From: Zingiber officinale
Lineage: Eukaryota > Streptophyta > Magnoliopsida > Zingiberales > Zingiberaceae
Reading direction: 5' to 3'
NCBI RefSeq assembly: GCF_018446385.1
Contig: NC_055987.1
Location: forward strand, 5,665,705 to 5,729,704
Length of the DNA stretch: 64,000 bases
Part shown: positions 8,584-64,000 of the stretch, one piece after another
Position numbering within the stretch: position 1 is the stretch's first letter
How the letters are laid out: each line of letters begins with the position of its first letter
Notes under the pieces: generated by a model
Database searches by the model: none
The model's input: only the letters and a program-made list of their open reading frames with translations
Told to the model about the DNA's origin: nothing
Program-made: the position numbers and the translations under genes

Positions 8584-10092
8584 ATAAGTTTAACATTATG
8601 ATAAATTGAAAAACAAATTATCATGGCAGTGGTAAAGCAAGTGAAATTAATGTCTAGATAGTATAATCTTTATTTTAAATGTGCTCTGGAAATATTTTAT
8701 AAAGCAAGGTATATTGTTAGGGAATATTATATCCCGTGATGATCAATAGACAAAATTCAAGTTGAAGTAAAATTGAAGAACCAATATATTACATTTCCTA
8801 ATATAATTATCTCAACCAAAAGAATCATAATTAAAACATTGTAATTAAGCAAACTTTATCACTGGTATTACTCAAGGACATTATTAAAGTGATATTTTGC
8901 TAGTTAATGGTATAAGCATAAACTTGATTAGAATCATTTAAAATTTCTCAAATGAAACTATGTTCATCTTATTAGTTAACTTATACAAGGTATTGGAGTT
9001 TTCAACATGTAATTAAGAAAGATAATATAACTTTTAACGATTCTTGACAGTATTGATATAAGTAGACACACCTAGGATGCAACAAAATAAAAATTGTTCA
9101 AGGTGTGGAAAACATTAAGAGTAGAAAGGTCAATGTGGTAGAGATGGACATGCTAAAGTAATGAAGTAGTACTAGTTGTCTAGCTTGCCTTTCCTTGTTG
9201 TGAATTGAGATATCCATTGATCCACCGAATCATCCAATAGGACTGCATTGACCCACATTAATACATATGTTTCATTGAGTTTAGACCTCAAATTTGGTAG
9301 ACCTATGATTAATTCCCTCTAAACGATTTTGGGGTATGGAATCATAACACATGTGAACGACAAATTTATCCACATGAATGTAATATTAAGAAAAACAAAA
9401 CAAAAAAAGAAATAAGATATAAAAAACATAAAACTCTTACCCTAATTGCTAGAAAAGAGGGAGAAACAAGAAAGAATTAAGATGTACAAACCTGAGAGAA
9501 TATGAAAGATGGCTTCAGCGCGTTGCAGGAAAAGGCAGTGAACTTGCGGCGTGAGAAATAAATGTAGCGGCGAGCGAAAAATATAACTGTGTGTGTCGTG
9601 AGAAAGAGGCGCGATGTTGGGAGAAGAGAAGATCGAAGGAGATGAGGTGGTGTGCGAAACTTGAAGTGGTTTGTGGTGTTAGACAACAAACAAGAGAAGA
9701 GGAGATCGAAGGAGAAGAGGACCAGAGGCTGTGTGTGGAGTGAGAAAGAAGTTCGATGAAGGAGAAGAGGAGATCGAACAGGCCGTGTGCGGTGTGAGAA
9801 AGAAGTTCGCGCGATGAAGGAGAAGGGGAGAACGATCGAAGCAGTGCGCGCGAGAAAGAAGTTCGGCAGGTGCAAGGGATTGCGATGAATCAAGGGTTTT
9901 AATTAAGTGAGAAGAATTAGTAATCGATTAATAATGATATTTATTAAAAATGTTAGTAAATAGGGTCTAATTTGATATTTATTTTTTAATTATTTTTGTT
10001 TTTTGATAAGTGTCATTATAAGGTGTCTATTATGACACTTATAGATAAGTGTCGTAAAGAAAATGTCTTAATAGATCTTTTTTCTTGTAGTG
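8584..10092 (-). other. CACTA 5' region: leader, GA-rich repeats and subterminal repeats
   Basis: This stretch lies between the TNP2 start and the transposon tip. From 8600 to 9470 it is AT-rich with no recognisable coding sequence. From about 9600 to 9860 it holds imperfect direct repeats of a GA-rich unit containing GAGAAAGAAGTTCG and GGAGAAGAGGAGATCGAA. Their minus-strand translation is a 138-residue Ser/Phe/Arg-rich frame of low complexity, which I do not regard as a protein. From about 10005 to 10065 short AGTGTC/GACACTT motifs in both directions look like subterminal transposase-binding repeats, ending at the CACTA tip. Confidence 0.6.
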
Positions 10093-14000: not shown

Positions 14001-14083
14001 TCTTTTTGTTGGACAAGGTGCAACACTTCTCCATGCTTTAGGGATTTGTGGAAGCCCCTAACGTTCCAAGAAGCTATCTTCAT
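11071..14083 (-). pseudogene. LINE ORF2: endonuclease, reverse transcriptase and zf-RVT, broken
   Basis: Segment 14083-13370 is an AP-endonuclease-like domain beginning MKIASWNVRGFHKSLKH, with the METK and FTWSNG motifs and a C-terminal LSDHSC. Segment 13036-12689 leads into the reverse transcriptase with CGKTPGPDGYGLKFF. Segment 12335-12066 holds the YADD catalytic motif. Segments 12053-11652 and 11712-11071 form the thumb/connection and the zf-RVT region, with a C-x2-C...H pattern (CVLCRHQEESNH). Several frameshifts and stops separate them, one stretch near 12340-12690 being poorly conserved. The product once nicked DNA and primed reverse transcription of the LINE RNA. Confidence 0.88.
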
Positions 14084-14637
14084 TTATCACCTCTTCGGGC
14101 TGCTCACACTCATAGTCGTCTGCCACTTGTTGGGGCTCGTGTACTATTTCCCATATCCACACTTACATTTACTATTGTAGTTGAGGGCAAAGAGGATGTT
14201 GATGTCTCAGATGTTGTATGGATTATCTCACTTGCTGTCTCATTTTCCTGTGCGCCCGTAGAGGATGAAGAGCTCCCCAAGCTAAAATCTATTGACTGGT
14301 GTATTACTTGTGGTAGCTGTATTTCGACACTTCTTTGAGGTATTTCTGCATTTATTTCTACTATTTGTGGAATCTATTGTTGTGGCATTTGATTCGCTCC
14401 TTGGGGATCATTGTTCTCAACAATAGGGGACTAGATAATCACTAGAATGGGGTTGTTTACCAGAATGATGACAAGATCATTTTGCTCAACATGTACTTCA
14501 ACATTTGGTCTTTATTGTGTTAGCAGTCATTGTTGCCTTGTTCAATTTCTATATCTTGTTCTTATCCTCCTATGACCCCTAATTGATTGAGATCTTGATC
14601 TCCCATATCCTTGCATATTTGGATCAACGTGAGCATC

Positions 14638-15724
14638 CTATTCAGGCCATGTAGGTTGCTGCCCAACAATTGCAGTTCTTCTATGACAAATTTCCGATTG
14701 ATGGCCTATCTTCTTATATGTTTTGCAAAAATCTGGTACCATTTCATAGATAATTCTTAAGTCAACTTGTACACCAGTAGGTAGGGTGATAGAGCTCATG
14801 AATCCGCTCTCCAAAAGCCAAAACCTCCACCATGAGACTCGCATACTCTGAATGTTCTCTTGCACATGTCAAATTGTCGGTGTACAATGGTTTTCTAATT
14901 TCTGATTCAATCATGCTTAACACTTTTTGAGTCCAACAATCTGGTCGGAGGCAATGAATTTATATCCAATCAGACACAAAATGTTCATCCTCATCAAACA
15001 GAAAATATTTAGGCATTATCTTCAAAAACATTAGAATACCAAATACAAAGTAAGGGCCTCCTTGTAGTACTTTTTCCCGATCTTCTTCCTTATCAAAGTG
15101 AAAGACTATCCACCCACTCTTATGCATGAAAAACTTGTGGGGAATCTTCCATTGAAAATATATGATTCGGAGACCATCTCTACCTTGATGCCAACCCATG
15201 AAACAACTAACAAGACAAAAATCGATTGAATCCTCCACACTATCTATGTCATTATAGTCAAAAGCTAACCTTTCTTCCTTTGCTTTATACTGATCTAGTT
15301 TTATAGAAAGTTTTGTTTTATGATTGTCCTTGAAGAGGCTAGCCCAATTCTTCTTCTTTGGTTGCGGCACATTCCTTCCATTGTTTATAGCTTCATCAAC
15401 ATGGTTTGGTTGTGCTTCAGCCATTGGAGGTTGGTGTTTTACTTCCTCCGGCAAGATCTCCTCTTCCACCACTGGTGGTGGTGGGTTGTTTCCATGAGCA
15501 TTAGCTTGCTGAGGAGGAACATCTATCCTTAGTGATGTGCTTACCTCATTGGCTTCATTAACCACATCATCATATTGTTCCAAGTCATCATTGTCCAATT
15601 GATCCATTTATTCCATTATCTCTACCACATAAACCACTTCATCTGTCATCTCATCTTGGTTTGCCACCTCCCTAGGTGCCTTTTGACCAGAATGCCTCTT
15701 GGTCTTCCACTTTTCCTTTGCCAT
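14638..15724 (-). pseudogene. LINE ORF1, DUF4283-type nucleic-acid-binding protein, broken
   Basis: The likely start is the ATG at 15724 (MAKEKWKTKRHSGQK), followed by a stop near 15610 and a second open segment from 15607 (MDQLDNDD). A Pro/Glu/Asn-rich N-terminal part is followed by the DUF4283 region, with HKSGWIVFHFDKEEDREKVL and GGPYFVFG, at about 15130-15020. Further down, 14865-14638 has LPTGVQVDLRIIYEMVP and a CKTYKKIGHQSEIC motif like the gag-type zinc knuckle that follows DUF4283 in plant LINEs. It is interrupted by at least two stops or frameshifts. It lies directly upstream of ORF2, as expected for an RNA-binding ORF1. Confidence 0.8.
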
Positions 15725-24100: not shown

Positions 24101-24866
24101 AGAAAATTTTCTAGCTCTACTTGAGTGTAACCTTACACATTTTTTCTGGTTGCTAGGTTATTAGAGTTAAATGGTCCTTGCATGCTAGGGAAGAAATTGT
24201 TTTCGAGCTTCTGCATTACTTGAGAGGAAATGCCTCAAGAATCATGCTAGAGACAATTAAGAAGAGCACCAGGGAGATGTTGGAAGAGCAAGAGGCTGTC
24301 CGTGGGCGGCTTTTTACAATTCAAGACGTTATGCAGAGTACAGTGCGTGCATGGCTACAAGTATGACCTTGAAAGATTGTCGCCATGTTGGAATGGACAA
24401 AACATTTTTCTACTTTTTTATATGCAACCTTACCCATAAACCTGCCATCCATGTTGTTTATCTTATGGACTATGTGATCCAGGATAGAAGCCTCCGCGTT
24501 ACGCATAATTTGACCATCTTTGGTGGTTGCGGCCTAGTTCTTTCGATAATCACCGGGCTTTTTGGGATCAATGTGGATGGAATACCCGGGGGTGCAAACA
24601 CGCCATATGCGTTTGGTCTCTTTGCCGGAGTTCTTTTCTTCATAGGGATTGTTCTGATCGGTCTAGGGTTACTTTATCTTGGGTTGCAGAATCCGATTAC
24701 TGAAGAAAAAGTTCAGGTGAGGACGTTGGAGCTCCAGCAGCTGGTCTCCATGTTCCAGCATGAAGCGGAAACCCACGCCAAGGTTAGAGATGCCATCTCA
24801 AGGCATAATCTACCTCCAACTGCGGCAGATGTGCTCCAGGAAGCAGGATATGTTATTATACCATGA
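18155..24866 (+). CDS. CorA/ZntB-like Mg2+/Zn2+ transporter family protein
   Basis: CorA-family proteins are membrane channels or carriers for divalent metal ions. Eight coding exons close in frame to 566 residues: 18155-18167, 18250-18941, 20032-20217, 20332-20423, 21844-21903, 21999-22068, 24157-24360 and 24483-24866. The start ATG gives MKLNDGQDS after splicing into exon 2. The N-terminal 240 residues are soluble, with the WERPVGPTWWCHVTAGH region. A long cytosolic helical region follows. Two C-terminal membrane helices are in exon 8: the first ends in G-I-N (467-469) where classical CorA has G-M-N, the second is around YAFGLFAGVLFFIGIVLIGL. A GIN triplet is known from ZntB-type members, so the ion is uncertain. 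The last intron-rich half contains two retroposons. An AATAAA poly(A) signal is at about 24948. I recall a similar Arabidopsis protein (At2g42950) of the same class. Confidence 0.88.
21232..21580. repeat. Imperfect 180-bp tandem duplication in an intron
   Basis: Two adjacent copies (about 21232-21412 and 21413-21580) share CTGATCAAGGATCTATGATC, then TTTCCACTAATATAAT, then CAAATTGATCCT and TTTAGATTGTCC in the same order. They sit in the intron between coding exons 4 and 5 of the CorA-like gene. The copies have diverged by many substitutions and small indels. Confidence 0.7.
22113..22462 (+). mobile_element. 5'-truncated RTE-type LINE, 350 bp
   Basis: The plus strand encodes the C-terminal end typical of plant RTE reverse transcriptases: MLRWMCGHTRMNKIRNESIR, then sequence like LRWYGHVLRRP. 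It closes with the RTE 3' pattern (GCCGACCC..CTAGTGGGATAAGG) and a TTGTTTGTTGTTG tail. It is flanked by an exact 19-bp target duplication. Stops show it is inactive. It lies in intron 6 of the CorA-like gene in the sense direction. Confidence 0.85.
22482..22650 (+). mobile_element. tRNA-derived SINE (Au-like), 169 bp
   Basis: The element starts AAGGGGAACCTTGACGCAAC, matching a pol III box A region, and has a box B-like GAGTTTGAGTTGCGG region about 45 bp on. It then carries the Au-SINE-like words CCTCTTGCAATACA, TGCGTACAATAGACCC and CTTCATGCACAAGGTTGCCC. Diverged 19-bp target repeats flank it. It is the best preserved SINE in the window; fragments of a similar SINE occur at 55384, 56006 and 56650. 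Confidence 0.82.
22670..24156. other. Rest of CorA-like intron 6
   Basis: About 1.5 kb of intron. Positions 22750-23060 are richer in GC, with repeated CACCCCTTT and TAGACA words and several copies of GCAGTGTTGTT-like sequence, which suggests a diverged repeat whose family I cannot name. The remainder is plain AT-rich intron ending in the acceptor TTGCTAG before 24157. Confidence 0.4.
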
Positions 24867-38803: not shown

Positions 38804-41098
38804 GTATGTGCTGCTTTCAGCGTATATACTTCCTCCCATGTAGATGATGAGTACTATCTTGTTATTGTTTTTGAATTGTGTTGCAATCTCGCTAAAAATG
38901 ATCACTTAGTACAAGCTTTACAAAATGTGATTGTACCTGCGTAGTAGTTGGCAGTAGACATTTATGGGAAGGTCATTTCTTCCACAAGAAAGATGATGAT
39001 TGAATCTGTTAATCATAGTATTTTAAGATTTTTTTGATCCCATTCAATTCCTATGAATTTCATTTAGGGCCCGTGACTTTGGGGAGAATTTTTGTTAAAC
39101 TAACTATTAGAGCTAGAGAATTGTTCCAAAAAAGATAAACCAAATTCTTATTCCAACTCTGAAAATGGTAAACTTTTTGAATTGTTATTATATGGGCTTC
39201 ACTCGACATGGCTCTTTATTGCCTGCTATGATCATCAGCTATATTAACATTTAGTTAATCGAGATTGTTATAATTAAAGGAAAATGCATGACTTTTAGTT
39301 TCCTTATTTGATAAGGTTTGATAGAAAGATAATTACAGTGATGCCATTACAGAAATACTAGATTATAGAACCCATCTAAGCACATGAAATCTCAATTGCT
39401 AGCACAGATAGTGGTTAAAGAAAGAATAGACTCAAGGGTTAATTGTACTGCAACTCTTTTTAGAAAGGGTTAATTTCACTTTGGTACTTCCTAATCTCTA
39501 AAGCTGTACAGTCAAATAGTAATTGTGGCACCTTGAGCATAGTGCCTTTATTTTTGCAGTAGCATGAACTGTTTGGCTGCTGATTTCAATTTAGTAACAC
39601 ATTATTAGCATTCTTTTTACTTAGTTAACAGATTAGTTATGTTTGTAGGATTACAAATTGTCTACCAAATCAAATACTACTACACTGCACTCTACTCAGC
39701 CAATTTATGGTGCATAGGACAAAATATAAATATTTATTCCATAATTGAATTTACTTGTATCACAAGAAGTTTCTGTGCAATTTCAAAAGTTAAGGATTTC
39801 CGGAGTGCAAATAATCCTTTCCCAAGGGTAAGAACCTTCTGCCTGAGAGCTAACCGCGGTGCTAACATCATTAATTATGCCTTTATGTTGATTTTGGTTA
39901 GGTTGCTTTAATCATTATTCTTAGAAATTGTATTGATATTCTTATTTCCAATTGTGAATACCTCTCTTTCTTCTTGCAAAATAGTTGTACATAGATTTTA
40001 TAGTTGTTTTATTCATAGATAGCTTGATCTCTTACATATTTTTTCATACATGTTTATGTGCCATAGTTTAACTAGCAAAGCATTTTGGCATAGAATGAGG
40101 GCTATTTCTTATACTAAAATTGCCTACTTTTGCAGTGTCAAAATGGGCATACACTGTGTTCGACATGTAAAACAAGGGTGCACAACCGTTGCCCTACTTG
40201 TCGCCAAGAGCTTGGAGATATCAGGTGCTTGGCACTAGAAAAGGTGGCTGAATCACTTGAGCTTCCATGCAAGTACTACTCGCATGGATGCCCTGAAATC
40301 TTCCCATACTACAGCAAGCTGAAACACGAAGCTCAATGCAACTATAGACCATACAATTGCCCATATGCGGGATCTGAATGCTCTGTTATCGGGGATATCC
40401 CTTTTTTAATTGCACATTTAAGAGACGATCACAAAGTTGACATGCACACGGGTTGCACGTTCAATCATCGATATGTTAAATCTAATCCACGAGAAGTTGA
40501 AAATGCCACATGGATGTTGACTGTAAGTTCACATTCTTCGTTTTCTGATCTCGTAAGTTCGTTAATACGTTTTTAATCATTTTACATTCTTAAAAAGAGT
40601 CTGAGGAAGGGTGAGCAATTGAGTTAGTTGCCTGTTCAAACGAGCTATCTTTAGAAATCATATTTTTCTAGCCTCATGGAAAATTACCCTCTTGAATAGA
40701 TTTTTCAGTTTGTTCACTTGTGTTACGATTTGCAGGTGTTTCACTGTTTCGGGCATTACTTCTGCTTGCACTTTGAGGCCTTCCAGCTCGGGATGGCTCC
40801 TGTTTATATGGCGTTTCTGCGCTTCATGGGGGACGAAAATGAAGCCAGAAACTTCAGCTTCAGCCTTGAGGTCGGGGGCATTGGAAGGAAACTGATATGG
40901 GAAGGAACACCTCGAAGCATTCGCGACAGTCACCGCAAGGTCCGTGACAGTCACGACGGGCTCATCATACAGAGAAACATGGCACTCTTCTTCTCCGGAA
41001 GCGATAGGAAAGAGCTGAAGCTGAGAGTGACCGGCAGGATATGGAAAGAGCAGCAGAACAATGAGGCTGGTGTTTGCATGCCGAATCTCTTTACCTGA
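37645..41098 (+). CDS. SINA/SINAT-type RING E3 ubiquitin ligase
   Basis: Seven-in-absentia proteins are dimeric E3 ligases that attach ubiquitin to regulators (in plants NAC factors, autophagy and brassinosteroid components). Three coding exons, 37645-37830, 40136-40522 and 40736-41098, give 311 residues, normal for SINAT proteins. The RING is C49-x2-C52...C63-x3-H67-x2-C70-x2-C73...C81-x2-C84, split by the 2.3-kb first intron right before C63. A SIAH-type zinc-finger region follows (CKYYSHGCPEIFPYYSKLKHEAQC and the H-L-R-D-D-H segment), then the TRAF-like substrate-binding and dimer domain from VFHCFGHYFCLHFEAFQLG to the end (MPNLFT). All key residues are present. An out-of-frame ATG at 37641 overlaps the start and could lower initiation. 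I cannot say which SINAT paralogue this is. Confidence 0.95.
38766..38802. repeat. (GA)n microsatellite in SINA-type intron 1
   Basis: An uninterrupted AG dinucleotide run of about 37 bp. Confidence 0.95.
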
Positions 41099-42473
41099 TG
41101 ATTTGCTCCATTCGATCTGATTGTCGTGAGGTAGTATGAAATTTTATGATCTTGTTGTATTTTTAACACTTGTATCGGTGCACGATCAGGACATTGGTTC
41201 CATAATTTCAAGGGTCTGTTTGCTTACAGCAAGTGCTAATAAATAAGGAAACATGCAAAAGATATATGATAATAAAGACCAACTTTTATGAAGCTAGCAA
41301 CAGAGCAAGAAATTAACGACATCACTGACGATGCACGGGCACAGAGTGTCTGTATACACTCCAATATTATATTTTAAAAAAATATAACTCGTATAGCTTT
41401 CATGTAGACTAGGTAGCAATCAGTCATGTGTGATTCTGTCTATTTTGAGCTAAATCGTATAAGGTGTGGGTTTGGCTTAGTCCATGGGTTGGTTTGGACA
41501 AAGGTGGCTCGGTTCATAGTCCAAGTCGAGCATGAAGATTGAGTTGGACTTAGGGATGGCCAACCAGGCTTAGGCCATGACTAGATGTTTGACCCAGCCG
41601 TCATGGGCCATGCATAGCATGCCCCATGATGGTCCATGTTAGGCAAGGGTAGTGTTCGATTTGTATGAGTTCATTATTATTGAAAGATTAAGAACTTGAT
41701 CCATGTTCATTCACATATCAACATTGTGCTTACTCATTGGCAGATTTTAATGGTGATTGGGAAGATAGACACTGATGAGTGGAGCGATTCTGTCAAATGA
41801 AATCCATCATTGTTTACGGAATATGAATCTTCCATATTTAACGTGAATATTGAATATCAAATTGATATTGCCATCAATTAGGTCTGAGGTTCGAATCAGG
41901 TAAAATCGAGGTAAATATCAAACAGATAGTCTTTATTAAGTAATGGATTTGTTGAAGGAAAAAAAACGATCCATTTTAAGTGGTAATTATTTGTATTTAC
42001 CAAATTGCTAATAAACAGTTTTGATATGCAGCATCTAAGCACTGATAATCTTTGGAGGCTCATCTTATATAGTATTCTATATAATCATTATCATCACCAT
42101 CAAATTGTATTAAGGTGGCAACTGCTCAACTGTGGATAATATGAAATAGAAAATTTACAAATAATGGTTGCGAATATCAGGTCTTATGCTAGTCTAATAA
42201 GATGACACAAGCCAGCAAGGGCAACAAAGAATGGACCTCAAAGAAAGAACAAAATAATGGTACCTTTAATTATACTACTACTTCAATCATAGAAGCATGC
42301 CTATTCACAAATAGACACCTAACTTAAGAATCAATATCATCTGGATCTATGCTGCCTCTATATCAAATCAAATCGTCAATTAGTCATCGCTACTTGTGGT
42401 GTCGGGAATAACTGACTGTCCGGAAGTTTTTCACTGAGAATATGTATTTTCTGGATCCATTCAAGAACTGACA
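41099..42473. other. Intergenic space between two convergent genes
   Basis: It contains the 3' UTR of the SINA-type gene and probably that of the epimerase on the other strand. At about 41450-41660 a GC-richer patch with TTGGTTTGGAC, CATGGGCCATG and similar short words looks like a diverged repeat. No gene is seen. Confidence 0.5.
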
Positions 42474-43124
42474 CTACTGGAAAATAGGTTCTCTGTTGAG
42501 AAACTTTGGCACTTCGAAACTAAGGTGCTTCCCATTGTTCGTGCCAAACAATCCATAGTTAAGGTCTTTTCCACTGGCAACCTCAGGTGATCTATCAACA
42601 TGGTGCTTTCCGCTTGCATCCTCAAATGATCCGAAAGTAATGTGCTTCCCATTAGCAATCTCAGACAATCCATAAATAGGCTGCTGGTGGTGACCATTCT
42701 TGAACGATCCAAATGTGAAGTGTTTCCCATTCTTAGGTAACACATAAATTGGGCGATTCTCATTAGTTGTCTCAAATGATCCAAGAGTAACGTGCTCCAC
42801 ATTAGTAGTTTCAGTTGGCCCACAACTAACATGCTTCTTACTGGTAGTTTCAGTTGGACCACAACTAACATGCTTCTTACTGGTAGTTTCAGTTGGTCCA
42901 TAAGAAGCATAATTCCCATTAGCAACGGCAGCCAAATCACAAGTGGCATGCTTCTTATTAGCTATTGCAGTCAATCCAACAGCGGTGGGTTTCCAGTAAG
43001 AGCTCTCTAGTGATTCATGATGAATATGATGCTTTCCATTAAGAATCTTAGGCAATCCACCAGTATGGTGCTTTGCATTTGTAGTTTCAGGTAATCTACA
43101 AGTAGGTTGATTTTCATTAGCAGT
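42474..43124 (-). repeat. 39-bp coding minisatellite in the last epimerase exon
   Basis: On the minus strand the tail splits into about 16 units of 13 residues (39 bp), most of them like E-T-x-N-G-K-H-x-x-x-G-x-P/F. Examples are [13 protein letters not shown] twice in a row, [26 protein letters not shown] and [14 protein letters not shown] few units are 11, 12 or 16 residues long. The nearly identical pair (about 42820-42900) shows recent tandem copying; the other units have diverged. Because 39 is a multiple of three, other frames stay open too, which explains the competing open frames on both strands. Confidence 0.88.
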
Positions 43125-46100
43125 CTCGGGTGATCCAAACCCCCATGGGTTTTTGCTAGCCCAATTCCATTGATCTTGACACATCTCTTCAATGCCATAC
43201 TTAGCCCTGCACAGAAGCCATCAAATTTTATTCAAATAAGTTTCTTTAAAAAAATTGCATTCTAGTCTACACTGGAGAGATGTATCTAATCATTAATGCT
43301 TGATAGGCCATACTTCCAACGTAGTTCCTTCTCTGCTTTGGCAGTGGATGCGTAAACAATTGCAGCATCACCTGGTCGCCGTGCAGCCATGAGCAAAGGA
43401 ATTTTCTGGGTATACCAACTATCATTTATTAGACAAAGGAGAGTGGCATAGACAACAGAAGTGAATTAGCAATAGCACCTTTCCAGAAGCCTTCTCAAAA
43501 GCTGCTACCATCTCAAGAACAGATGTCCCTCTCCCAGTTCCTAGATTATAGACTTCACATCCTGCTTTTTACAGAAAAATGTTAAATCACAATACAAAGG
43601 TTGCTCTGTAATAGGTATTAGGAAGCATAACATATTATTATGTTGGCAAGTACGGTCCCAGAGTATAAAGTTTAAGGAACCACTTGTAACAAGATACAGA
43701 CAAACATTTAGTTAGTGTTTGTACTTAATATGTTACAGAGTCGCAGGTAAGAGTTGTGCTGAAACACATTGCCTTTGCTTTCCAAAAGCATGACAAGTAA
43801 AACATGCCATGAAAAGAAACCAATATTTTGGCTGCACCATAGTCATAATATTAGTGGTTTGTTTCAATCAGTCCATGGTTATATGCTTCCTTTTAGCAGT
43901 TCTTCTAATTCACGATATTATTAAATTAAACAAGGCATAATTGTTGCACTGACAAAAGCAAGTTCATGGATCTGTTTAGATCTTGTTGACTATGGACTAC
44001 AATTGAACCTTTTGACAACCATGACCATCCATCAGTGGTCATGTTGAAATAAGCCACAAACTAATAAGGGAATCTAGCAACAATCCATGTCGATGAACAG
44101 AGAGCAGCTATAGTGCATCCTGTAAGTAAGGCCAATTTGGCTTTGTCTTCTGAATAGGTTTCACAAAGGTGGAACTTATTTAATCAAGGTGAAAAGATTC
44201 CTTTCCCCTGATATCGACCAAAGTCGTCCTTATCAATTATCATAGGTAGTTACCAAGTCTTGCTACCTGGTCTAGCATCTTAAACGCAAGTTAATCAAAA
44301 AAATGTCAAATGGTATGTACAATTCTTTCTCTCATTTGTCATTTTTAGGTTTCAAATTGTTTTTAACGTGACAAATAATGTGTATGTCTCTTTCCAAAAA
44401 AAAAAAAAAAAATTTAAATCTACATATGCACACAGCCTTTCACCTTTATAAGATTCGTAGTTAAATGAAACTCCCCTATGAAATAGTAGTTCTAGTCTAC
44501 CATTGATCTCAAAATTGAAGTCTGAAAAGAATCATGACAGTTTTCATAATCCATCAAACAGTTTCAGTTATGATAAAAATGCTTTGAATGATGACAATTT
44601 TGCAGCCTTCAGGCCATCATTTAGTGATGGCTAGATAACATAAATTTCACATGCGAAAATACATAGGTATTGGATTGCACCAAACTTCGCCAACATAGCT
44701 ATTTTAAGACAACAAACAAGATGATGAAATGCAAATTAAATGTTTAAACGCACCTATCTTAGAACCCTCAAATATCTTCTGCAGGGCTGCAATATGTCCC
44801 TCGGCTAAATCAACCACATGAATGTAGTCCCTTACCTGAAATGGCAGTATAGTATTCAAGACCAGATATTAATACTGAAAAATTATCTAAAATGATATAG
44901 AACTCAACTGACTTTTTTGGTCAGGCTGAAAACAATTAAGCTGAAGGTTATATAGGTAGCATAAAAAATCTTACATAACAGAATATGGAAATAAATTTTA
45001 GTACAAAATGGAAAAGAAACACATCTAGTATCCTATATATTTTTACAACCTATGATCAAGGTCAAATGAAATGAAATATTTTTGTCTGAAAAAGTGTGCT
45101 CATACAATGCTGAGTAGCTGAATCAAAGTTCAATATTAGGCCATAGGACATTACCTAACTTAACTGGTGTTTAATCTTCAAGAAAATGGTTGGATAATGT
45201 ATATAAACCTATTTTAGAAATTTCCACTTAGAAAATGCTATCATGTTTTAGAAAACCTCTTCATAACATACTTGAAAAACTAATCAATTGGTATCTGCTT
45301 GAAAGCACTGATGGAGTCAGGCAAATGATTAAATAAAAGTCAGATATATTAAAATCATTTCTGAACTAGATTGGAGTTCGTGGAAAAATGATATGTAAAA
45401 TTCTCAAAGAAAAACAAAGACCAGTACCCCAGTGCCATCCTTAGTTGAATAATCATTTCCATATACCGTAAGGACAGATCTTCTTCCAACGGCTACTTGT
45501 TGTACAAAAGGCATGAGATTATTGGGAATTCCTTGAGGATCTTCACCAATGTATCCACTGGGATGTGCTCCAACAGGATTAAAATATCTTAGCAGTATTA
45601 CATCCCATTCACCGTCACTTTGACAGATATCACGACAGATATCTTCAGTCATAAGCTGCTTACAATATAATCCAAGGATTATTAGCTCTCATAGAAGATG
45701 AAAAAACATTGCACAAAGGCAAAGCTGAAGAAAAAACCTTGGTTCGTCCATATGGGTTCATTGCACTTAGAGGAAATTCTTCTGTACAGGGTACCTCCTT
45801 GGGCCACCCATAAACAGTTGCTGATGAGGAGAATACCAGCTGAAAAGATAAAGATATATTAGGTATCAAATGATTGTTAACTGAAAATAACCACCACTAT
45901 CACTGTGCACAGGTAACATGTAAATTTCATCCAAGTTAAATAAATCATTTTCTATAAGACTCAAATTCATGGGCTAAAGACAATAGGAAGTCAAAACTTA
46001 AAGCGAAACCTCAAGTATTAAATTAATACTGATAGAGAAATTTCAGACAAAGAACACTTAAAAATGGTGAAGTTGCCAGAAAGACTGACACAATGATGGT

Positions 46101-49100
46101 GAAGTTGACACAATACACTCGAGCTACAAATGCAACCTAGGTGCCTAAGTTACTCCAGGTGATATTCCAAAGTATTTAGATGGAACCTACACCCTAAATA
46201 TCTACTTCTATACCCCATTTGCAATTCCATGAAGGAAATATGGATTTTACCTCCCTTCCAGATAGTGGAGGGCCACCCTGGAGGGGCCACCGAGGTGACG
46301 ATTTCACCTTTTTACTACCAATGAAGGAAATATGGATTTAGTAAAGAATGTCACCAGAATCAGTTCACCTAGTATGCAGTGCATCGACTCAGAGGCAGGT
46401 GCTCAGATAATACAGTTGTTACTACAGGATGAAAAAGTGAAAGCAACAGTAAATTGGTAAGTTGCATAAAAGAGAGTTTTTCTCAACTCATATGAGAATT
46501 AATTGTGAGAACGGTACCATTCTGTTAAATATTTAATGCTTTTAGACATTGTGAATAACTGTTAGTACTTATTCACTATTGGTTGTACTTTTGCTTCATT
46601 GTGCTTGGTGATATGATATTAGAATCTTGGCAAGAATGTTGAGGAATCACCAAGACTACATGGAAATCTATGATTGTTTATTAGAGTCATTTGTTTAATA
46701 AATGTAAGAGAGAGATACCAGATGAGCTGTCTTTTGAACAATTATCTATGATAAGAATCCTTTTATTTGTGCCAAAGTCTTTGACAATGTCCCATCCACA
46801 AATGGAACAATGTTCTCATACAAATTCTCAATAAAATAGGGAAATTGTTCCTACAGATGGAGCATTTATCTCATGCACATTGTAAGAGGAGTCTGATTTC
46901 AATAGATGTTCTAGTGCTCTTTTAACAAGCCTGAACCTTTAGGTATTTTCATCAAAGTATTTAATTTGATAGTAACTAAAATTGGACTATTGAAAGAAAA
47001 ACACAGGACTATGCTTACCTTTTTGCATCCATTTTCAGCCATTACTTCAAGTAAATTGATTGTGCCGATGAGGTTGTTATTGTAATAAAGTAAAGGTTCT
47101 TTAACACTTTCACCAACAGCTTTTAGTCCAGCGAAGTGTATAACAGCATCAAACCTGCAGAAACAAACAGGCATATGAGCTTTAAGGAAAAAAGGGCAAA
47201 ATGATGTCATGCAACGTTAAAAAGGATATCCAAACAAAATCGGAAGCGGAAAGGTAATTGACTGAGAAATAATAAGCAGCAAAGGTCTAAATCACAGTGT
47301 ATTAGACTTGGCAGCCTCAGCTGTCAAATATTTGCATATGTTATCATCCATTGTACAACAATATATTAAAGAACCAGAAATAACTATTCAAGCAAATAAC
47401 AAGGAACCTTCAGCATGCAACGCCAAACAAACATCCACACAGTTAGCAGTCTTTAGTCACTCGCATTAACTAAACCATTCAGTTTCTTGAAGCAATATCT
47501 AGTGTTCTAGTATAATTTAATATTTTATTTACTGTCAATTACATCTCATGGGAGCACATCTCTTTTAAAAAGCAGTTGAACATTATACTAATACTAGAAA
47601 TAAAGATATATACTAAATTAACACCTTTAACAATTTTGAGCTGGAAGATGAATCTGAGGTATGTAACCCCTATTGTCGGTTTATATAATTCAGTTAATGA
47701 ATTATAAGAAATGTATTGATTCACCAAGAAGACTCTTTATCCCAGATTAAACTGAGAATAAGCCATTCAATGTGGAAACAAGTGTGTCATTTCTTTTTGG
47801 GATCACATTGTGCCACCATTATATACTGTAATGGAATCCTCTAGAAGGGAAAATTATGATCCAAATGAAATACAAATAATCAAGAACATGAAATCAGATA
47901 ACACGACCATTTTATCAAAATATTTTAAAACAGACATCAAGAAAGGCCACTGGAAGATAAGGAGGAACATTCATAAAATGGCAAGAGGAGCTAAAAGAGT
48001 AATCAAGTTGCTTCATAAATTACAAAATGTCAAAAAGTAAAAGTAATATTGATGCTAGTAGAATAGAACCATACTTGTTTGATGAAAAAATTTTCTCCAG
48101 TGCTTTCCTGTCTCGAAGATCAACCTACACAACCACCAAAGCATGCTAAAAATCAAATTCATGGATTCAATCCTGTGGTTATTATAGGAATAAAGAAATG
48201 GTATTTTGCAATACCCAATGATGGGTATTTTAACAAGGTATACATCTGTCAAGACTAGTGAGTAATCAAACTTTAAGAAATTTTATTTCAGATATTAACT
48301 TGATATGCATTATAAATTTGAGCAAACATGTTTTTCCTTTCTAAATTCAATTTTGACTGTCTTTTATTTGGAAAGAAAACTTTTTGGGTACCCAAATTCA
48401 GAAACAAAGGACCTTTCTATGCATTGCATTTACCATCATTTTACAACATATAGTTCAAAGGTGGTATGCGTTTGTTGTGCTTCTAGAAGTTGGATAATTA
48501 AATCTTAAAATTTGCAGTATGAGTATGAAATTGTTGTCTAAATTTCAGGTGTTTCCCCCCTCTTTTAAAAAATAAAAATAAGCAATCTGCATGTATGCGG
48601 AGCATATTCCAATTTCCAAGTGAAACAATTTCAAACTTAGATGCGTGGTGAAAGTTCTTAATACTAAATTAGAACCAGTTAACTCACATTCCCAGGAACC
48701 CAGAGATCATATAGCCAACTGGTATTCAGTCAAGAAATCTTAGTCATAAATTTAGTCATGAAGAGATTATAAAGAGACTTGTGTGGCTTATTTGTTGATT
48801 GAAGAAATGTCAAAATGAATACAATGTTTTTTAGTTGGCAACTTGGCATATTGCATAATACCTTGTCGCTAACTCTATGTAAACATGTGTTTCATAACTT
48901 CAATGAGGCACTTCATAACAAGCGAGACCAATATTATCCAAACAATTATGCAAGGGTTAAGATGTGTCTGCGCTGCTGTATGGAATTCCAAATTTGATGA
49001 ATCACTGCAGTTAGAAATTGAAATTATGATGCCAAGAACATTGAAAAGTGGTGAAACCCTTCACATTTTGGCAGCATCTTCTAGTAATAAGATATTAAAG

Positions 49101-49966
49101 CACATATGAGCAAAAAGATAAATCCATGTCTTTTCTCCAAAAAAGTTGTTCATGCTGATGGTTGAATTCTTCAAGAGAGCTTCAGCAGGTAATACAGGCA
49201 AAACGTTCATGATATTATATTAATTAACAGATATTTAGCAAATCCAAGGTCTTAAACAGCGAATCGAACCAATTTGGACTACAAATCCATGTCTAATATG
49301 TTGATTTGAAACCGCAATTTTGACCGTCTACCAAATTTAATTGAATTGAGCAGTTTTTTAAACTTCGAATAGGCCTTTCATTGTCTAGCCGTCAATCATA
49401 TCGTACTGTTTACCTAATTTGACAAAAGAGATGTGATGATGCAGGGCCCTCATAAACACCAACGGCGTGTAATAACTAGAACCAAAATTGAATAGAGCAC
49501 TATAACAAATCCAATTGCAGGAAATATAAGGGCACTGCGACATCCCATTCATTGCTCAACGAGATGAGTAATCTCTCGCTGGAAACGGAGGGAGCTGGAA
49601 GTGCATCATCTCAATCGAGAATCACCAATAAAAGCAAAAAAGAAAAAAAAAATTGTCGATCAAGAATACGACCGAACGCACAGATAAGAAAGAAGACGGG
49701 GGAAAAAAAAAATCAGACATCGAATTAAACCCTCAAATAGGAAGCGGAAGCGCTACACTTCGTACCCGATGGAACGCAAGGTTCTTGCCAAACTCTCCGG
49801 CGAGCTCTTTAACCCGCTCCACTGCGACCAACGATGAGTTATCCAGGTTATCCACCACGACGACGCGGAAACACCCTTTCAGGAGCTGCAGCACCGTGTG
49901 GCTGCCGATGTACCCTGCCCCTCCGGTCACGAGAATGGTGCGCCCCACGAACGGAGAAGAAGGCAT
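42474..49966 (-). CDS. UGE: UDP-glucose 4-epimerase with a long repeat tail
   Basis: The enzyme interconverts UDP-glucose and UDP-galactose using bound NAD, supplying galactose for cell walls and glycolipids. Nine coding exons close in frame to 568 residues: 49966-49766, 48124-48075, 47154-47019, 45839-45738, 45655-45428, 44835-44754, 43561-43479, 43405-43314 and 43206-42474. The NAD motif GGAGYIG is at 15-21, SSSATVYG has its serines at 133-135, and the catalytic pair is Y159/K163 in [18 protein letters not shown] and [10 protein letters not shown] are also intact. The usual C-terminus ([16 protein letters not shown]) is reached at about residue 351, but reading goes on for some 216 residues of a 13-residue repeat. 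The start at 49966 fits the known N-terminus; the frame is also open upstream, but a TATA box at 50093-50100 argues that transcription begins after those ATGs. The exon 4 donor (GTTTTT) is weak. Confidence 0.92.
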
Positions 49967-50092
49967 CAGGCCGACGGAGCGAGGACGACGAGCACAGGAG
50001 TCCTCGGGATCCCTCCGCGCGAAGGGAATCGGAGAGGGGAAGGCAGGAGAGAAGGGGGCGTGGAACTGGAACCCAGGACCGATGGAGGCAGG

Positions 50093-50100
50093 TATATATA
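50093..50100 (-). promoter_or_regulatory. TATA box of the epimerase gene
   Basis: A TATATATA word in a GC-rich setting lies about 127 bp upstream of the chosen epimerase start on the minus strand. Transcription would begin near 50065, giving a 5' UTR of about 100 nt. Confidence 0.6.
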
Positions 50101-50131
50101 CCCGCGGGGCACTCTGATTCCTAACCGCCAT

Positions 50132-51124
50132 GGTCACCGGCCCGGGCATGCGCTGTCCGAGAAGCGTCAACAACCGAGGGGAAATAAAAAATATTCCGGG
50201 AATTATTCGCACTAACAATAAAATATCGTAGAGAGCACGTGGCGGATTTGGGTTGGTAGGTTATGGAATTTTCTCCAGCTGGTCATAGCTGACGGTCGGA
50301 AACGCGGCTCCGCTGTCCGGGCCCAGACACGGGATGCCCTTCCGCTCCGCGTGGGGTCGATTACGAAGCCGGCGGACGATGTCAAAGTGACTGGGTAGCG
50401 AGGAAGGAGGCCAATGTAGGTAAGGTGTTCGACGGAATGGCGAAGTGACCGAGGTTAATATTTTTTTATTAAGATGCAACGAAAAGAACGTCACCGGGGA
50501 GCCACAGAGGGCGTTGGTGGTGGTTGCTTTCCCTGGGGCAATGGCCACACATGGATCGTCTGATCACACTTGCATTGTTTGGTCTGGTAGATACAAATTC
50601 AATCTTAAACGAAAGCGATAGCAGGTGGGCTCTCTCCCTCTCCCTCTCTGTGAGGATGCAGGAAAATGTGTTCGACGAAATGCCCACAAGAAATTGGGTG
50701 GCAAATTCGGCCTCCTCAGCCAGAGGCTACCGTCTCGATTCCGACAAACCGGAATTTATTTCAATATATCTAGTCCTTTATTGATCTGCCGATGCAAGAC
50801 AGCACTCACCCACTGATTGCATGATTTCACATCTCAATTTCTAGCATGCCTTGCTGTAGCTGGTTGTCTCCGTCCTGCTGCGGGCAGAAAGCTTTTGGTT
50901 CTCTGTTCATCATGTGCTCCTGTGGCTCAACGACTTCGATAAAGATGAATGGATTTGGGCCCTCAAATTGGTTGGTGCAATGATTACTTGGGGAGTTCAT
51001 CAGCGCTGGATTAGAGAAAATAATGGAAGGGAATCCGGTAATTAAGGATTTCGACGGAAATGATTGGATTCTTTGGACGACTCCTGTTGAGAATCTTGTC
51101 TAATTAATTTTCTCAGCTAAAAAG
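50132..51124. other. Upstream region of the epimerase gene, no gene seen
   Basis: The first 400 bp are GC-rich and may hold the epimerase promoter. Open frames on both strands (for example 50524-50784) have no recognisable motif or splice context. I support no gene here. Confidence 0.5.
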
Positions 51125-52568: not shown

Positions 52569-55500
52569 ATGGGGAGAAATGTAGTTGCCCTAATAGTTGT
52601 TCTGGGATTTGCGATCGTGGCCGTCGGTGCGCAACAGGATGGTTGTAGTTCGGAGCTGCCTGCCAGTCTCAGCGGCAACTACTCGGGCCTCGCCTGCAAG
52701 ACTGTCTGGAACAACTTTGTCCTCAGGGTATGAACCCTAGCTTTACCAATTTAATTTTTTTTTACGCCGAAAATGCATTTTTAATCTCGAATAGAAAGAT
52801 TGATGCTTTTTAGCTTTTGTTCATCCGGAGCAAGATTTTTTTTGCTTTAATTAGATTTAAGATTTTCGTGGTGTCCAGAAAATCTCATGTATTTTGGAGG
52901 AGATCATATTCGTCATAGTTATGCTTCCATGCTCATATAAGTTGACTTTTATCTCATCCCCTTCCATTAAACTCTAAACGCGTAATCTAAGCATCAGATT
53001 GGAAACCAAGATGCCGCCTAGTTTGCTGGTAAGGGCCTTGGCTATTGTGCTGCACAACATCTTGAGATCATTTGCTTCCTCCATTGCTTGATTGGATTTA
53101 TGCTAACTTTTCCTCAGAAATTGCATTATTAGGATTATATTGTGAAAGCCCGAACGAGCCTAATCAGATCCAAGATACCAAAACACTTAAGTGAAGATAT
53201 TTTGATATTTAAATATATCTTGAGAACTCTTTTTGAGATGTGAGACTAACGACTAGACTTTATCCTCTCCTCATCTCACATTGTACTCCTTTTTCCAACC
53301 ATGTGAAAGTCCAAGAGAGACAAATTCAACCAAAAATGCTAAGGCACATAGGTGAAAAATCTATGTTATTTAAATATATTTTGAGAACCTCTTCTTGAGA
53401 TGTGAGTTTAAAGGGTAGAGATTATCCTCTCATCTCATGTCCTACTACTTTTTTTTTTAACATATAACAACAATGTCATGTAGTGATTTTTTACCATGTA
53501 AATGAATTTTTGAAAGATGATGAAGTTAGTCCTTATGTAGTAGATAGGTTGAGATAAAGATTGTAAAAACATCTTCAAAATGTTGGATTGACAAAATTTT
53601 CACTTGAACTAACCAAAAGCAGCATTCATTCAGCAAGAACATCATAGTGAGAATTAAACATGGTTGGCTCTTGCAGTACTACCAGGACCAAGACAACGTT
53701 CTGAGCATTGTGTTATCTACCATGTACTCAAGTGGTTGGGTGGGAATGGGATTCTCCAAGGATGGAATGATGGTTGGTTCTAGTGCTGTGGTTGGCTGGG
53801 TGGGGAGAACTGGCCTACCTCATATCCAAAGGTATTACCTTGGTGGTCAGACTAGCCAACAAGTGCAGGTTGACCAGGGGAACTTACTCTTTGCTGCGGC
53901 CACACCTTCTGTTGTTGTTGATCAAGCTAAAATTTATCTGGCGTTCCAGCTGAAGTTTTCAGCTCGGCTTTCTCAGCAGCAACTTTTATTTGCTATTGGA
54001 TCAGCAACACCAGTCAACAATGTACTACAGGAGCATGATGACAAGACGTCTCTCTCATTTGATTTTTCAACAGGTATATAATTTATGCTCTTTTATTCTT
54101 TGTCATCTTACAAGAATTCAAATTTCCATCGATTGGATATGCATGTTTCCACTGTCATTGTGCATGTCCATTGTGTTAGTGGTGAACAAATAAAAAAGCT
54201 GCCTCCGAGTCTTAATCCAACCATGTATGTTCACCACACCTAAGTTTCTTTTTCTTTTTCATGGTTAGGTCAAAATTTCTTCATTGAAGTATTCTTTTTC
54301 TCCCACTGCAATTTACAAGTTGCATCACTACGTTATAAAATCAAGTCACCAACTAATGTAGAAGATTTTAAGTTATTTCAATTGAATAGAAGTTGTAAAA
54401 TCCTTCAAGTAACTAGAAGTGACATCTAATTAAGCCCTATTTAGCAATCCATTTTTTTTATAATTTCCTTTTCAATGAAATTGAAAATTCTGACATGAAA
54501 GTTTTTTTTTATTTTTAAATGAACATTTGTTTGAAATAATTCAACAGAAGAAGTTTTGAAAGTGAAAATTACGAAATTTTATTTGGTATACTTGATCGTG
54601 ATATTTTAGTAGTAACAGTAGTATTTATGATACTATGTAAATTATGGAAATATATCGAGGAGATAAAAATTAGAATAATACTCAAACGGCTAATGAACTA
54701 TCAACATAATAAATTATATTAATTAGACAAAATAATTATCCTTATCATCAAATAATCATCCTCCTTATTAAATTATTTAGTTTTAAGACATAATTATTTC
54801 AATTATCAATGAGTTGCAAAGTGTAGTTTTATTTGGAAATATATAAGGGTGAAATTAAAAAAAAAAATCTTAGGAGACAATTAAAAACTATAAACTGCCG
54901 TGGGTGGTATGAAATATTTAAAATGAAATTGAAAACACAAAAAAGAATTGAATGGGCAAATTATAATTTTATATTAACATTAGGGAAATAGAGGAATCAT
55001 ACAATTGTGAGAGTGAAATAAAATTTAGCTAGTGAAATAAAAAATTGCTGACTTTGAAAGAAAAGAAGTATACAACAACAACCACTAAACTTTATCTCAC
55101 TAGGTAGGGTCGGCTGAAAGGAAAAGAAGTGCAATTGGCTAAAAAATTTTGGAGTGAAATTAAATATAAAAAATTTTAGAGAAATTAATAATCATGAAAA
55201 CTTAAATGTCAGTGTAAAATTTCTAGACCGAATTATAAGTTTTAGAAGAATAAGGATCAGGATATAATAATCTGGTCACATACGATGTTTGTGTAAAATG
55301 TTTGGGAGGAAATTGTAAGTGTTAAAAATTAGTGAATCTTGATGTAATTTGTTTAGAGTCAAATATGAAAACTATATATATATAAGAGGAGTCTTGGTGC
55401 AATGGTAAAGTGTAGTTGTGTGCGAGTTTCATCTATATATATATATATATATAAATAATTAAGCAACTTTGAAAATTAGATCTAATTTCCATAATAGTTA

Positions 55501-60354: not shown

Positions 60355-60780
60355 GTAGCTGCTATAACGTTATAGCAGCTACTACATGTTCTAGCAGCTT
60401 CTGTATAGTAGCTGCTATAACGTGTAGCAGTGTTATTGTGTAACTATTATGTTGTAGCAACTACTGCACCGTTGTAGCAGCTACTGTTTTTGTATCATTG
60501 TAGCAACTACTGCACCATTGTAGCAACTACTGCACCGTTGTAGCAGCTTCTGCACCATTATAGCAACTTCTGCACCATTGTAACAGTTTCTGCACCTTTG
60601 TAACAGCTTCTGCACCGTTGTAGCAGCTATTGCAAAGTAACTGCTACAAGTTGTAGCAGCTACTGCATAGTAACTACTACAAGTTGTAGCAGTTACTGCA
60701 TAGTAGCTGTTACAATGTTGTATCATCACTGTTGTAGCAGCTACTGCATAGTGACTGCTATAAGTTGTAGCAGTTATTAA
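60355..60780. repeat. 20-bp near-palindromic tandem array
   Basis: Units such as CCGTTGTAGCAGCTTCTGCA and CCATTGTAGCAACTACTGCA repeat at about 20-bp spacing from 60460 to 60640. Flanking parts carry the same TAGCAGCTACT words in both directions (for example TAGTAGCTGCTATAA near 60410 and AGTAACTGCTACAAG near 60640). The core GTAGCAGCTAC is almost its own reverse complement, so units can pair with each other. The minus-strand frame (60804-60481) is a simple translation of the repeat and is not called a gene. Confidence 0.85.
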
Positions 60781-60871
60781 AGAAAGAGAGAAAAGTTGTT
60801 GCATGTAGATGAGAGAGATTAAAAAATTTTATAGTTGTTGTATGCAGATGAGAGAGAAAAGTTGTTGCACG

Positions 60872-61411: not shown

Positions 61412-62732
61412 CAAATCTCTCTCTCTTTATATTTATTTATTTATTTATAACTTTTAGGGTAATTTGATTTTTTTTTTATATTTAGAGTTTAGGGTTTCTT
61501 GACTGAATTATATAAAATCTTATACTTTATATTTCCAAGTATCATTTTTGGATTCAATAATATGGTTAGTTTTATTCTTTTTCTTAATTTCTATATAGTA
61601 TTAGAACGATTCTCCTTCTTTAATCTAATTTTTTCTGTCGTCCCTTGTTATTGCTTCATGTTGCCACTGTCTTCTCCTACTGTTGCTATCAATTTCGGCG
61701 CAGACATCTTTTTCTGCTGATTTTGGCGCCAATACCCTGTGCTACCAATTTCGACGTCGACGTTCTTTTTTGTCGATTTCGACGCCGACGCCCTTTTCTG
61801 TCGATTTCGATGCCGACACCCTGTCCTGCAGATTTTGGCACAGACTCTCTTTTCTACCAATTTTGGCGTCGACGTCCTATGTTGCCAATTTCGACGCCAA
61901 CATTTTTTTCTGTCGATTTCCGTGTCGACGCCTTGTGGTTTCGATTTTGGCATTGACGCCCTTTTCTATTGATTTCGACACCGACGCTCTGTACTGTCGG
62001 TTTTTACGTTTGACATCCTTTTCTATCTCGAATTCTTTGTGTGACCACGGATCATCCTGACACCAATTTTTATAGATTGTACAGATGTGTATCTTTACAG
62101 TTTGATTATTCTGAGCATTATTCGTTTTGTTATCATGTTTGGTGATGCAGATCCTTCATGGAAATCTGATCCGTATATGTTGGAGTAGTTTCAACAGTTT
62201 CTTACTTCATAACCCTCTACCATGTCAGCTTCCTCTCATATAAGTTTGTCATCGTCTGATATTTTAGGTATATCTTCATCCTTATGGATTTTGGACTCTA
62301 GTATCTCCCATCACATGTCATCTAATTTATCATCTTTTGTTTCTTTTTCTCCCTGTTCATCTATATCTATTATGATTGCTGATGGTACTCCTATGTCATT
62401 AGTAAGTGTCAGTTCAATTATTACATCTTGTTTCTCTTACTAATGTTTATTATATTCCGAGTCTTACTTTAAATCTTATTTCTATTAGTCAATTATGTGA
62501 GTATGGATACTTAATCTCTTTTTTTAATCCAATTGTTATATTCAGGACCCGCAATCTCAGAGACTAATTGGGATAAGTCGCAGGCAAGGAGGACTCTATG
62601 TTTTAGATCAACTTAAAGTACCAAAAGTTGTAACTTGAGTGTAGATTTATCATTTTTTCATCTGAGTTGTTCATCTTCTGATTTTTATTTATGGCACTCT
62701 CATTTAGATTATGTTTTAGCATCTTGTTTGTG
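61412..62732 (+). mobile_element. Copia-type relic with protease region (fossil)
   Basis: From about 62140 the plus strand matches a plant copia polyprotein: end of Gag (DPSWKSDPYMLEQFQQF-like), the protease region (WILDSS.SHHMSS..SSF and MIADGTPM, 62222-62443), and the pre-integrase start with a LWHS..LDYV pattern near 62690. A weak primer-site-like word (TATTAGAACGA) near 61600 may mark the end of a left LTR. Most of Gag is gone and several breaks are present. It is cut at about 62732 by the next element. Confidence 0.7.
61690..62010. repeat. 28-bp tandem repeat, about 11 copies
   Basis: Units like TTTCGACGCCGACGCCCTTT plus TCTGTCGA repeat at 28-bp spacing. Copies differ at up to a third of their positions. 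Since 28 is not a multiple of three, the frame turns with each unit, yet all forward frames and one reverse frame stay open because stop words are rare in the unit. That explains the overlapping open frames here, which I do not call genes. It lies in the leader of the copia relic. Confidence 0.85.
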
Positions 62733-64000
62733 TTGGGATCTTAGATGGCTAGAGGGGGGGTGAATAGCCCCTTTTAAAAACTTAAACAAAACTTCTACAC
62801 AGATAATTGTTAGCACAACGGAATTAGACAACTAAAGGAAAACAAAAACACAAGCACACTAACACTAGGATTTACGAGGTTCGGGGATAACTTGCCCCTA
62901 CTCCTCGGCGTGTCCGTAAGGTGGACGACTCCTTGATCTTCGGTAGATCGCACCCCGGATAACTTTCGGCTACAAATCCTCCTTCTCGGTGGAGTAACCT
63001 CCCCACAACGTCTCAAGAAATATCTAAGTTAAAGCACGAGACTTACAGAAGCTCGGTGGCAAAGGAGAATAAAAATGCTTACAACCACGCGAGGATCAGT
63101 AGCAGAACAGAGATCACAGTTGACCCGAGAGCTCAAGAACTTCGCACCACAGCATAGACTTTTCTTTCAAGCTTTCTCTTGTTGTGTTCTATTCTCCCCT
63201 CTCGCTGTTTTTACTGCTTCTCAAACCTGATCTCTGCTGTCACCGATCTGGTCAAAAACTGCGCGAATCAGCGCTGCAGCCAATCCCTCTTCCTCCTTAC
63301 CTGGTTCTCTGAACTCACACCAATGATATCACAGTCATCACTGGCGTCTTCTGAGCTCGAACCAATCCCCAGGAGTCAAGCAGATCGCAGCCAGATCACA
63401 GCAGTATCCGTTGATGCCTGAAATGCACCATGCGCCGCTGAAACCAGCAGAAAGACCATTTGTCGCATTCCTCTTATGAACTTAATTTGAAATTAGGCTT
63501 GGAATGATACCTGTTAACCTGCAAACTCAAAAGCTAACAGCACAGAGGATTATATCACATAAATGAATGAGGTATATCAAAAGCAGTGAAGGAATCGCTG
63601 ATACAGCGAACAAATCAGAGTGTGTGGATCGGTCACCAGACCGATCACAGTGCCTTGGACCGATCAGGCAACATCCTGATCGGTCTGAGGCCATTCTGAT
63701 CGGTCGTAGGGACCGATCAGATTGAGTGTGGATCGGTCACCAGACCGATCCACCCCTTTCTCTCTTCTGCAGGCTCTTCTCCTGATCGGTCTCCCTGACC
63801 GATCAGATTGCACTCAGTGTGCTACTGAGTGTTTTCTGATCGGTCTGCAGACCGATCAGATTTCACTCAGTGTGCTACTGAGTGTCATCTGATCGGTCAT
63901 CAGACCGATCCATGGAACTCAGTTTCACTGGATCGGTCTGCCGACCGATCCACTAATTCATGTGTCACTGGATCGGTCTACCGACCGATCCAATGTGCCA
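62733..64000. mobile_element. Start of another repeat element, continues past the window
   Basis: It begins TGTTGGGATCTTAGATGGCT, followed by AGAGGGGGGGTGAATAGCCC, inside the coding part of the copia relic. The first 500 bp contain GTCCGTAAGGTGGACGACTCC and GGTGGAGTAACCTCC words also known from repeats of monocot genomes. Then comes a plain segment and, from 63627, a dense palindrome array. No protein-coding part is in view. The TG start and nested position suggest an LTR (fossil), but the other end is outside the window. Confidence 0.45.
63627..63991. repeat. Array of GATCGGTC...GACCGATC palindromes
   Basis: Eight units have the form GATCGGTC, 4-5 bases, GACCGATC, at about 63627, 63699, 63731, 63785, 63837, 63892, 63932 and 63972. 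One unit (spacer TGCA) is a perfect 20-bp palindrome. Another inverted pair (GACCGATCAG/CTGATCGGTC) lies near 63659-63686. Between some units a second inverted word, CACTCAGTGTGCTACTGAGTG, occurs twice. The spacing is irregular, so this is a cluster of hairpins and not a simple tandem array. Confidence 0.9.

Follow-up and report, generated by a model that had tools for sequence, protein, structure and literature searches.

The UDP-glucose 4-epimerase (UGE) gene in the 64-kb stretch of ginger DNA analysed here (the window) encodes a complete enzyme core that is followed, in frame, by a tail of about 16 diverged copies of a 13-residue (39-bp) unit. We favour, as the likely explanation, a coding minisatellite that gives the intact UGE core a tolerated, loosely constrained appendage. 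Our confidence is high for the anatomy of gene and tail, moderate for the predicted translation of the tail, and low for any specific function that may be proposed for it.

The epimerase gene and its repeat tail

Nine exons on the minus strand make up the gene (Table 1). The coding sequence of 1707 nt specifies 568 residues, all eight introns are GT-AG, and the reading frame is open throughout. Residues 1-351 of the predicted protein are a complete plant-type UDP-glucose 4-epimerase core, which bears out the identity proposed in a preliminary description of this DNA. Residues 7-350 align with residues 5-349 of maize BZU3 (PDB 7xpo) at 640 bits, PDB 8wop (named UDP-glucose 4-epimerase 2) matches at 622 bits, and the TIGR01179 galE model scores 439.2 bits, above its curated cut-off of 262.3. 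The NAD-binding glycine motif GGAGYIGSH is found at residue 15. BZU3 is described as a homodimer with the triad S133/Y157/K161 (PMC10359280). In the alignment, the predicted ginger triad falls on S135, Y159, and K163, with an offset of 2.

Plant UGEs are customarily near 350 residues long, although this length is not a requirement for function. The 568 residues of the ginger protein exceed it, and the excess is an addition to a core that is itself complete. In rice, a nonsense mutation at codon 335 of OsUGE2 is reported to give a fragile-culm mutant, the residue being called conserved and needed for function (PMC7260720). Therefore, the native UGE end matters, and it is intact in the ginger gene. 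At the other end, the frame upstream of the UGE start is open (49967-50260, minus strand) and holds a further in-frame ATG 61 codons earlier, from which a longer N-terminus is possible.

Exon 9 is open from its acceptor, past the native end, to a TAG stop codon at 42476-42474. The tail would lengthen the enzyme by more than half, adding 217 residues to 351. An in-frame tail of 216 residues had been described previously; the tail is confirmed, but re-segmentation places its start one codon earlier and gives 217 residues.

The tail is divided into 16 segments, 13 of them 39 nt long and one each of 81, 33, and 30 nt. Identity at lag 39 is 0.536, compared with a mean of 0.284 (sd 0.018, maximum 0.348) in 5000 codon shuffles, so that the 39-bp repeat is far beyond chance and the previous reading, about 16 diverged 13-residue copies forming a 39-bp minisatellite, is confirmed. 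The units are in tandem and within the roughly 10-60 bp of a minisatellite, their lengths are multiples of three, and the frame is open. The consensus of the 15 aligned units is ETANGKHLTYGLS, near the ETTNGKHxTxGSF given in the preliminary description. A unit profile detects 14 of the 16 segments at E 0.0017 or better, by construction, as it was built from those same 14 segments. For the 81-nt segment 3, the profile match is no better than E 0.53, and there is none for the final 30 nt of the tail. Aligned without gaps, these 30 nt are 60% identical to segment 3 and 23 to 47% identical to the other 14 aligned units, and the piece is only weakly assigned as a repeat unit. Counted to the final base of the stop codon, 33 bases follow the last clear unit, which ends at 42507.

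Units 6 and 7 (42890-42852 and 42851-42813), which are covered by a TRF row at 42805-42900, differ at 1 of 39 bases (97% identity). One nearly identical pair had indeed been noted before, and it represents one recent duplication. In the one sequence studied, this pair suggests a recent change of the array. With the pair excepted, identity among the 15 aligned units ranges from 36 to 79%. Adjacent units average 59% (56% without the near-identical pair) and non-adjacent units 55%. Neighbours are thus hardly more alike than distant units when the pair is excluded, a pattern that does not reveal the history of duplication.

Table 1 Features of the UGE gene and its repeat tail in window coordinates.
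Feature	Position	Strand	Basis
UDP-glucose 4-epimerase gene, 9 exons	42474-49966	-	Intron/frame model; PDB and TIGR01179 matches
Exon 1, start ATG and GGAGYIGSH	49766-49966	-	Gene model, motif
Exon 2	48075-48124	-	Gene model
Exon 3	47019-47154	-	Gene model
Exon 4, SSSATVYG and catalytic YGRTK	45738-45839	-	Gene model, motifs
Exon 5	45428-45655	-	Gene model
Exon 6	44754-44835	-	Gene model
Exon 7	43479-43561	-	Gene model
Exon 8	43314-43405	-	Gene model
Exon 9, native C-terminus, repeat tail, TAG stop	42474-43206	-	Open from acceptor to stop
Native last 39 nt, in register with array, probable founder	43128-43166	-	Identity ranks among core windows
Tail, 16 segments of 13-residue unit	42477-43127	-	Segmentation, profile, lag-39 identity
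Segment 3, 81 nt, one or two worn units	42969-43049	-	Segmentation; profile E 0.53
Units 6 and 7, 38/39 bases identical, most recent duplication seen	42813-42890	-	TRF, identity
Unit 10, 33 nt, 6 bases short, frame kept	42702-42734	-	Segmentation
Last partial unit next to stop, weakly assigned	42477-42506	-	60% to segment 3; profile silent

Origin and age of the array

The native end of the enzyme is in register with the array; therefore, the array probably grew out of the enzyme's own C-terminus, which is the simplest account. The last 12 native bases (TTTGGATCACCC), compared with the end of the unit, rank 1 of 1042 core positions, and the mean identity of the last 39 native nt to the units ranks 5 of 1015 core windows; the boundary between core and array is our own choice, and this founder ranking is partly circular. 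With that caveat, the rank of the last 12 bases supports the previously proposed growth from the native GSPE region. Other UGEs share the aromatic-Gly-aromatic part, which is therefore native: it reads NPYGYAG in 7xpo and NPYGYNSS in 8wop.

The copied segment would have been 39 bp long and have spanned the natural end of the UGE gene; slippage or unequal exchange would have multiplied it, in tandem and in frame, to about 16 units and so formed a coding minisatellite. Since 39 bp corresponds to 13 codons, the frame survives the gain or loss of units, each of which would add or remove a 13-residue block behind the last native residues. The two internal segments of odd length (81 and 33 nt) also keep the frame, since their deviation from a whole number of 39-nt units is divisible by 3. 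The tail is presumably translated and would project from the surface of a dimer that is otherwise ordinary. Selection may act, perhaps weakly, to keep the frame open, but would scarcely act on the sequence of individual units. We propose that the tail is a polar, flexible appendage that the enzyme tolerates and whose effect on solubility, turnover, or weak contacts is at most modest, possibly with weak metal binding through the His-rich units. Such a gene would be a clean example in nature of an enzyme whose repeat tail arose from its own end, and it would help in asking under what conditions repeat tails remain neutral or take on a function. Were the tail translated, the gene would also offer a ready test of the C-terminal load that the dimer tolerates.

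The array is not young, because its 15 aligned units, apart from the fresh pair, have diverged to the extent given above. The same divergence fits a possible, if rather doubtful, alternative, in which the tail is old and standard in the UGEs of this plant's lineage and absent only from the collections searched. This alternative is compatible with a coding minisatellite on an intact core and would alter only the age of the tail. It is countered by the closest solved UGEs, maize BZU3 (355 residues) and 8wop (370 residues), presumably also a plant enzyme. Both resemble ginger UGE in the whole catalytic core, the triad, and the end motif NPxG[FY], but their chains end soon after NPYGY, where ginger UGE adds its 217 residues. 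In addition, no UGE with a repeat tail was found among the titles and abstract beginnings of the open-licence papers retrieved.

Several known systems resemble the ginger gene in part. The GAL10 bifunctional protein (PDB 1z45, 699 residues) likewise carries extra C-terminal sequence on a UGE core, but its extra part is a folded second enzyme, whereas that of ginger UGE is a short-unit repeat. Aromatic-Gly and Asn-Gly recur in another plant repeat, the BURP/PG1-beta motif FxxYGxxxNGxxxxF, which has YG-3-NG spacing and a period of 14. The tail is not a member of this family: its spacing is YG-5-NG (for example, YGLSEIANG), its period is 13, and a BURP domain is absent by Pfam. A literature search with the motif FxxYGxxxNGxxxxF found it in none of the open-licence papers retrieved.

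Repeats in coding sequences, also of metabolic enzymes, are already known (PMC2704214), and a UGE with such a tail is new among the sources searched, in so far as their titles and abstract beginnings tell. In Mycobacterium tuberculosis, leuA encodes alpha-isopropylmalate synthase and contains 57-bp units with polymorphic copy number (PMC2704214). Both genes have tandem units, of a length that is a multiple of three, in a housekeeping-enzyme gene. They differ in enzyme, unit, and organism, and the copy number is described as polymorphic in leuA, whereas the ginger array comes from one sequence. RNA polymerase II also has a repeat tail at the C-terminus of an enzyme, and its number of heptad repeats has been linked to DNA rearrangement (PMC4882425). 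There, the seven-residue unit is conserved, while the ginger units show no constraint.

Reading frame, composition, and splicing of the tail

The array has no stop in 223 codons of the coding frame, compared with 3, 31, 8, 11, and 25 stops in the other five frames. Neutral simulations, which start from the consensus and assume a star tree, so that P values are approximate, predict 4.0 stops in the 15 aligned units (193 codons; 2 of 17 pieces, the later half of segment 3 and the partial unit before the stop, were dropped), whereas 0 are observed (P = 0.013). When the first half of segment 3 is left out too, along with one member of the near-identical pair (13 units), 3.4 stops are expected and P of none is 0.024. 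Frame +1 is almost as open, with 1 stop within the units versus 3.5 expected (P = 0.13), indicating that the openness owes something to the make-up of the unit. Over the array, frame +1 runs open for 166 codons (42461-42961, minus strand) with a high Leu content; a tail frameshifted into it would end in hydrophobic sequence.

The amino acid changes among the units are those of neutral drift. Relative to the consensus, pN/pS is 0.72 (neutral 0.745, sd 0.11). Over all unit pairs, pN/pS is 0.70 (neutral 0.76, P = 0.23) and corrected dN/dS is 0.53 (neutral 0.61, P = 0.27). BLOSUM similarity among units is 2.15, compared with 2.17 under neutrality, and changes at fourfold sites (28 of 103) are no commoner than at nondegenerate sites (114 of 371). 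None of these comparisons detects protein-level constraint among the units. A codon-structured constraint was also considered and discarded, as the third base is the most changed at columns 1, 6, 7, and 11, and 4 of 13 is the chance level. The unit sequence thus does not look selected, whereas the array looks, if weakly, to be kept open as coding sequence.

Is the tail nevertheless a selected functional module? In such a module, the His/Asn-rich units would bind divalent metal or gather partners, two tails would be displayed per dimer, and the number of units would tune valency. His accounts for 17 of 217 residues in the tail versus 6 of 351 in the core; it is present in 11 of 16 segments and forms the cluster HHIHH. 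In the 15 aligned units, neutral drift from the consensus predicts 9.8 His where 17 are observed (P = 0.008, or about 0.07 after correction for the nine features tested); at the main column alone, there are 10 versus 6.5 (P = 0.06). In the same units, 16 Asn are observed versus 9.8 (P = 0.017, one of the nine features), and the nucleotide columns vary unequally (P = 0.0003). The His and Asn excess and the unequal columns are leads. Against them stand the corrected His value, the borderline main column, the lack of an excess of synonymous change, and the failure of Pfam and PDB searches to return a meaningful relative of the tail (see below), and we consider a selected module unlikely. Its fullest form is less credible still: we think it very improbable that, in one plant lineage, the C-terminus has become a selected, length-tunable, His-rich module giving UDP-galactose synthesis new control. 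If true, a highly conserved sugar-nucleotide enzyme (PMC5897480) would have come under, for example, metal-dependent clustering or docking on partners.

The tail had been called probably disordered, and this proves borderline. Its disorder propensity is higher than that of the core (0.156 versus 0.072), but its hydropathy, taken with its charge, lies at the Uversky boundary between order and disorder (0.416 versus 0.417). AlphaFold models computed without relatives have pLDDT of 36.5 for the last exon (243 aa) and 35.9 for units 8-16 (112 aa), values too low to be informative about a fold; both models show weak strands. The tail contains no N-x-S/T motif.

The array could also be transcribed but mostly removed or left untranslated, through alternative splicing or early polyadenylation, giving an enzyme of normal length and an open frame that is partly luck. 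The eight real donors score between 2.7 and 10.5, a range that includes the 7.2 of donor-like GT sites in units 6 and 7 (42869 and 42830), and beyond the stop codon there is an AG (42469) whose pyrimidine fraction is like that of the real acceptors. The neutral-like divergence of the units and a frame +1 nearly as open as the coding frame would fit as well. However, the GT sites near the native end, at 43200 and 43140, score 4.2 and 3.8 with the splice matrix used, below seven of the eight real donors and above the weakest (2.7). Moreover, the T content of the tail is 27%, whereas plant introns are usually T-rich, and the absence of in-frame stops has the low neutral probability given above. 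We regard such removal as improbable.

Relatives of the tail and other features of the window

No relative of the tail was detected in Pfam, PDB, or viral contigs. Pfam returns no family for the tail up to E 10 and none, BURP included, for the last exon up to E 1. The only PDB match of the tail in a search to E 10, TRIM5 at E 1.5, is taken as chance. Among viral contigs, 15 pattern matches to the tail yielded none that was confirmed. Elsewhere in the window, copies of the unit are matched only at E 6.9 to 9.4 by nhmmer and at 1.4 and 1.7 by tblastn. Because hits outside the array have only such weak E values, no dispersed element is indicated in the window.

A SINA-type E3 ubiquitin ligase gene lies on the plus strand, from 40118-40576 to about 41.1 kb, and converges on the UGE gene. 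Its 5' part (40118-40573) matches Pfam Sina_ZnF and Sina_RING, and a further exon was read by eye. Fusion with this gene is dismissed, as the gene is on the opposite strand, is convergent, and apparently ends at about 41.1 kb, 1.4 kb away.

Other features of the window are mobile-element remnants, two further domain matches, and unrelated arrays. Pieces of a tnp2-type DNA transposon (Transposase_21, Transpos_assoc) occupy 7066-8589, and pieces resembling a non-LTR retroelement (zf-RVT, endonuclease, DUF4283) occupy 11071-15607, both on the minus strand. On the plus strand, a CorA-like Mg transporter match at 24261-24866 scores 26.9 bits against a cut-off of 27, and a DOMON-domain frame is found at 53608-54081. 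An array of 20- to 81-bp units based on TTGTAGCAGCTACTGCA lies at 60452-60799. A 143-codon open frame (61629-62060, plus strand), with no Pfam family at E 0.001, runs over a worn array with periods of 28, 56, and 112 bp. At 63782-63992, units of 53 and 40 bp form tandem arrays, one of which holds the palindrome-like CTGATCGGTCTCCAGACCGATCAG.
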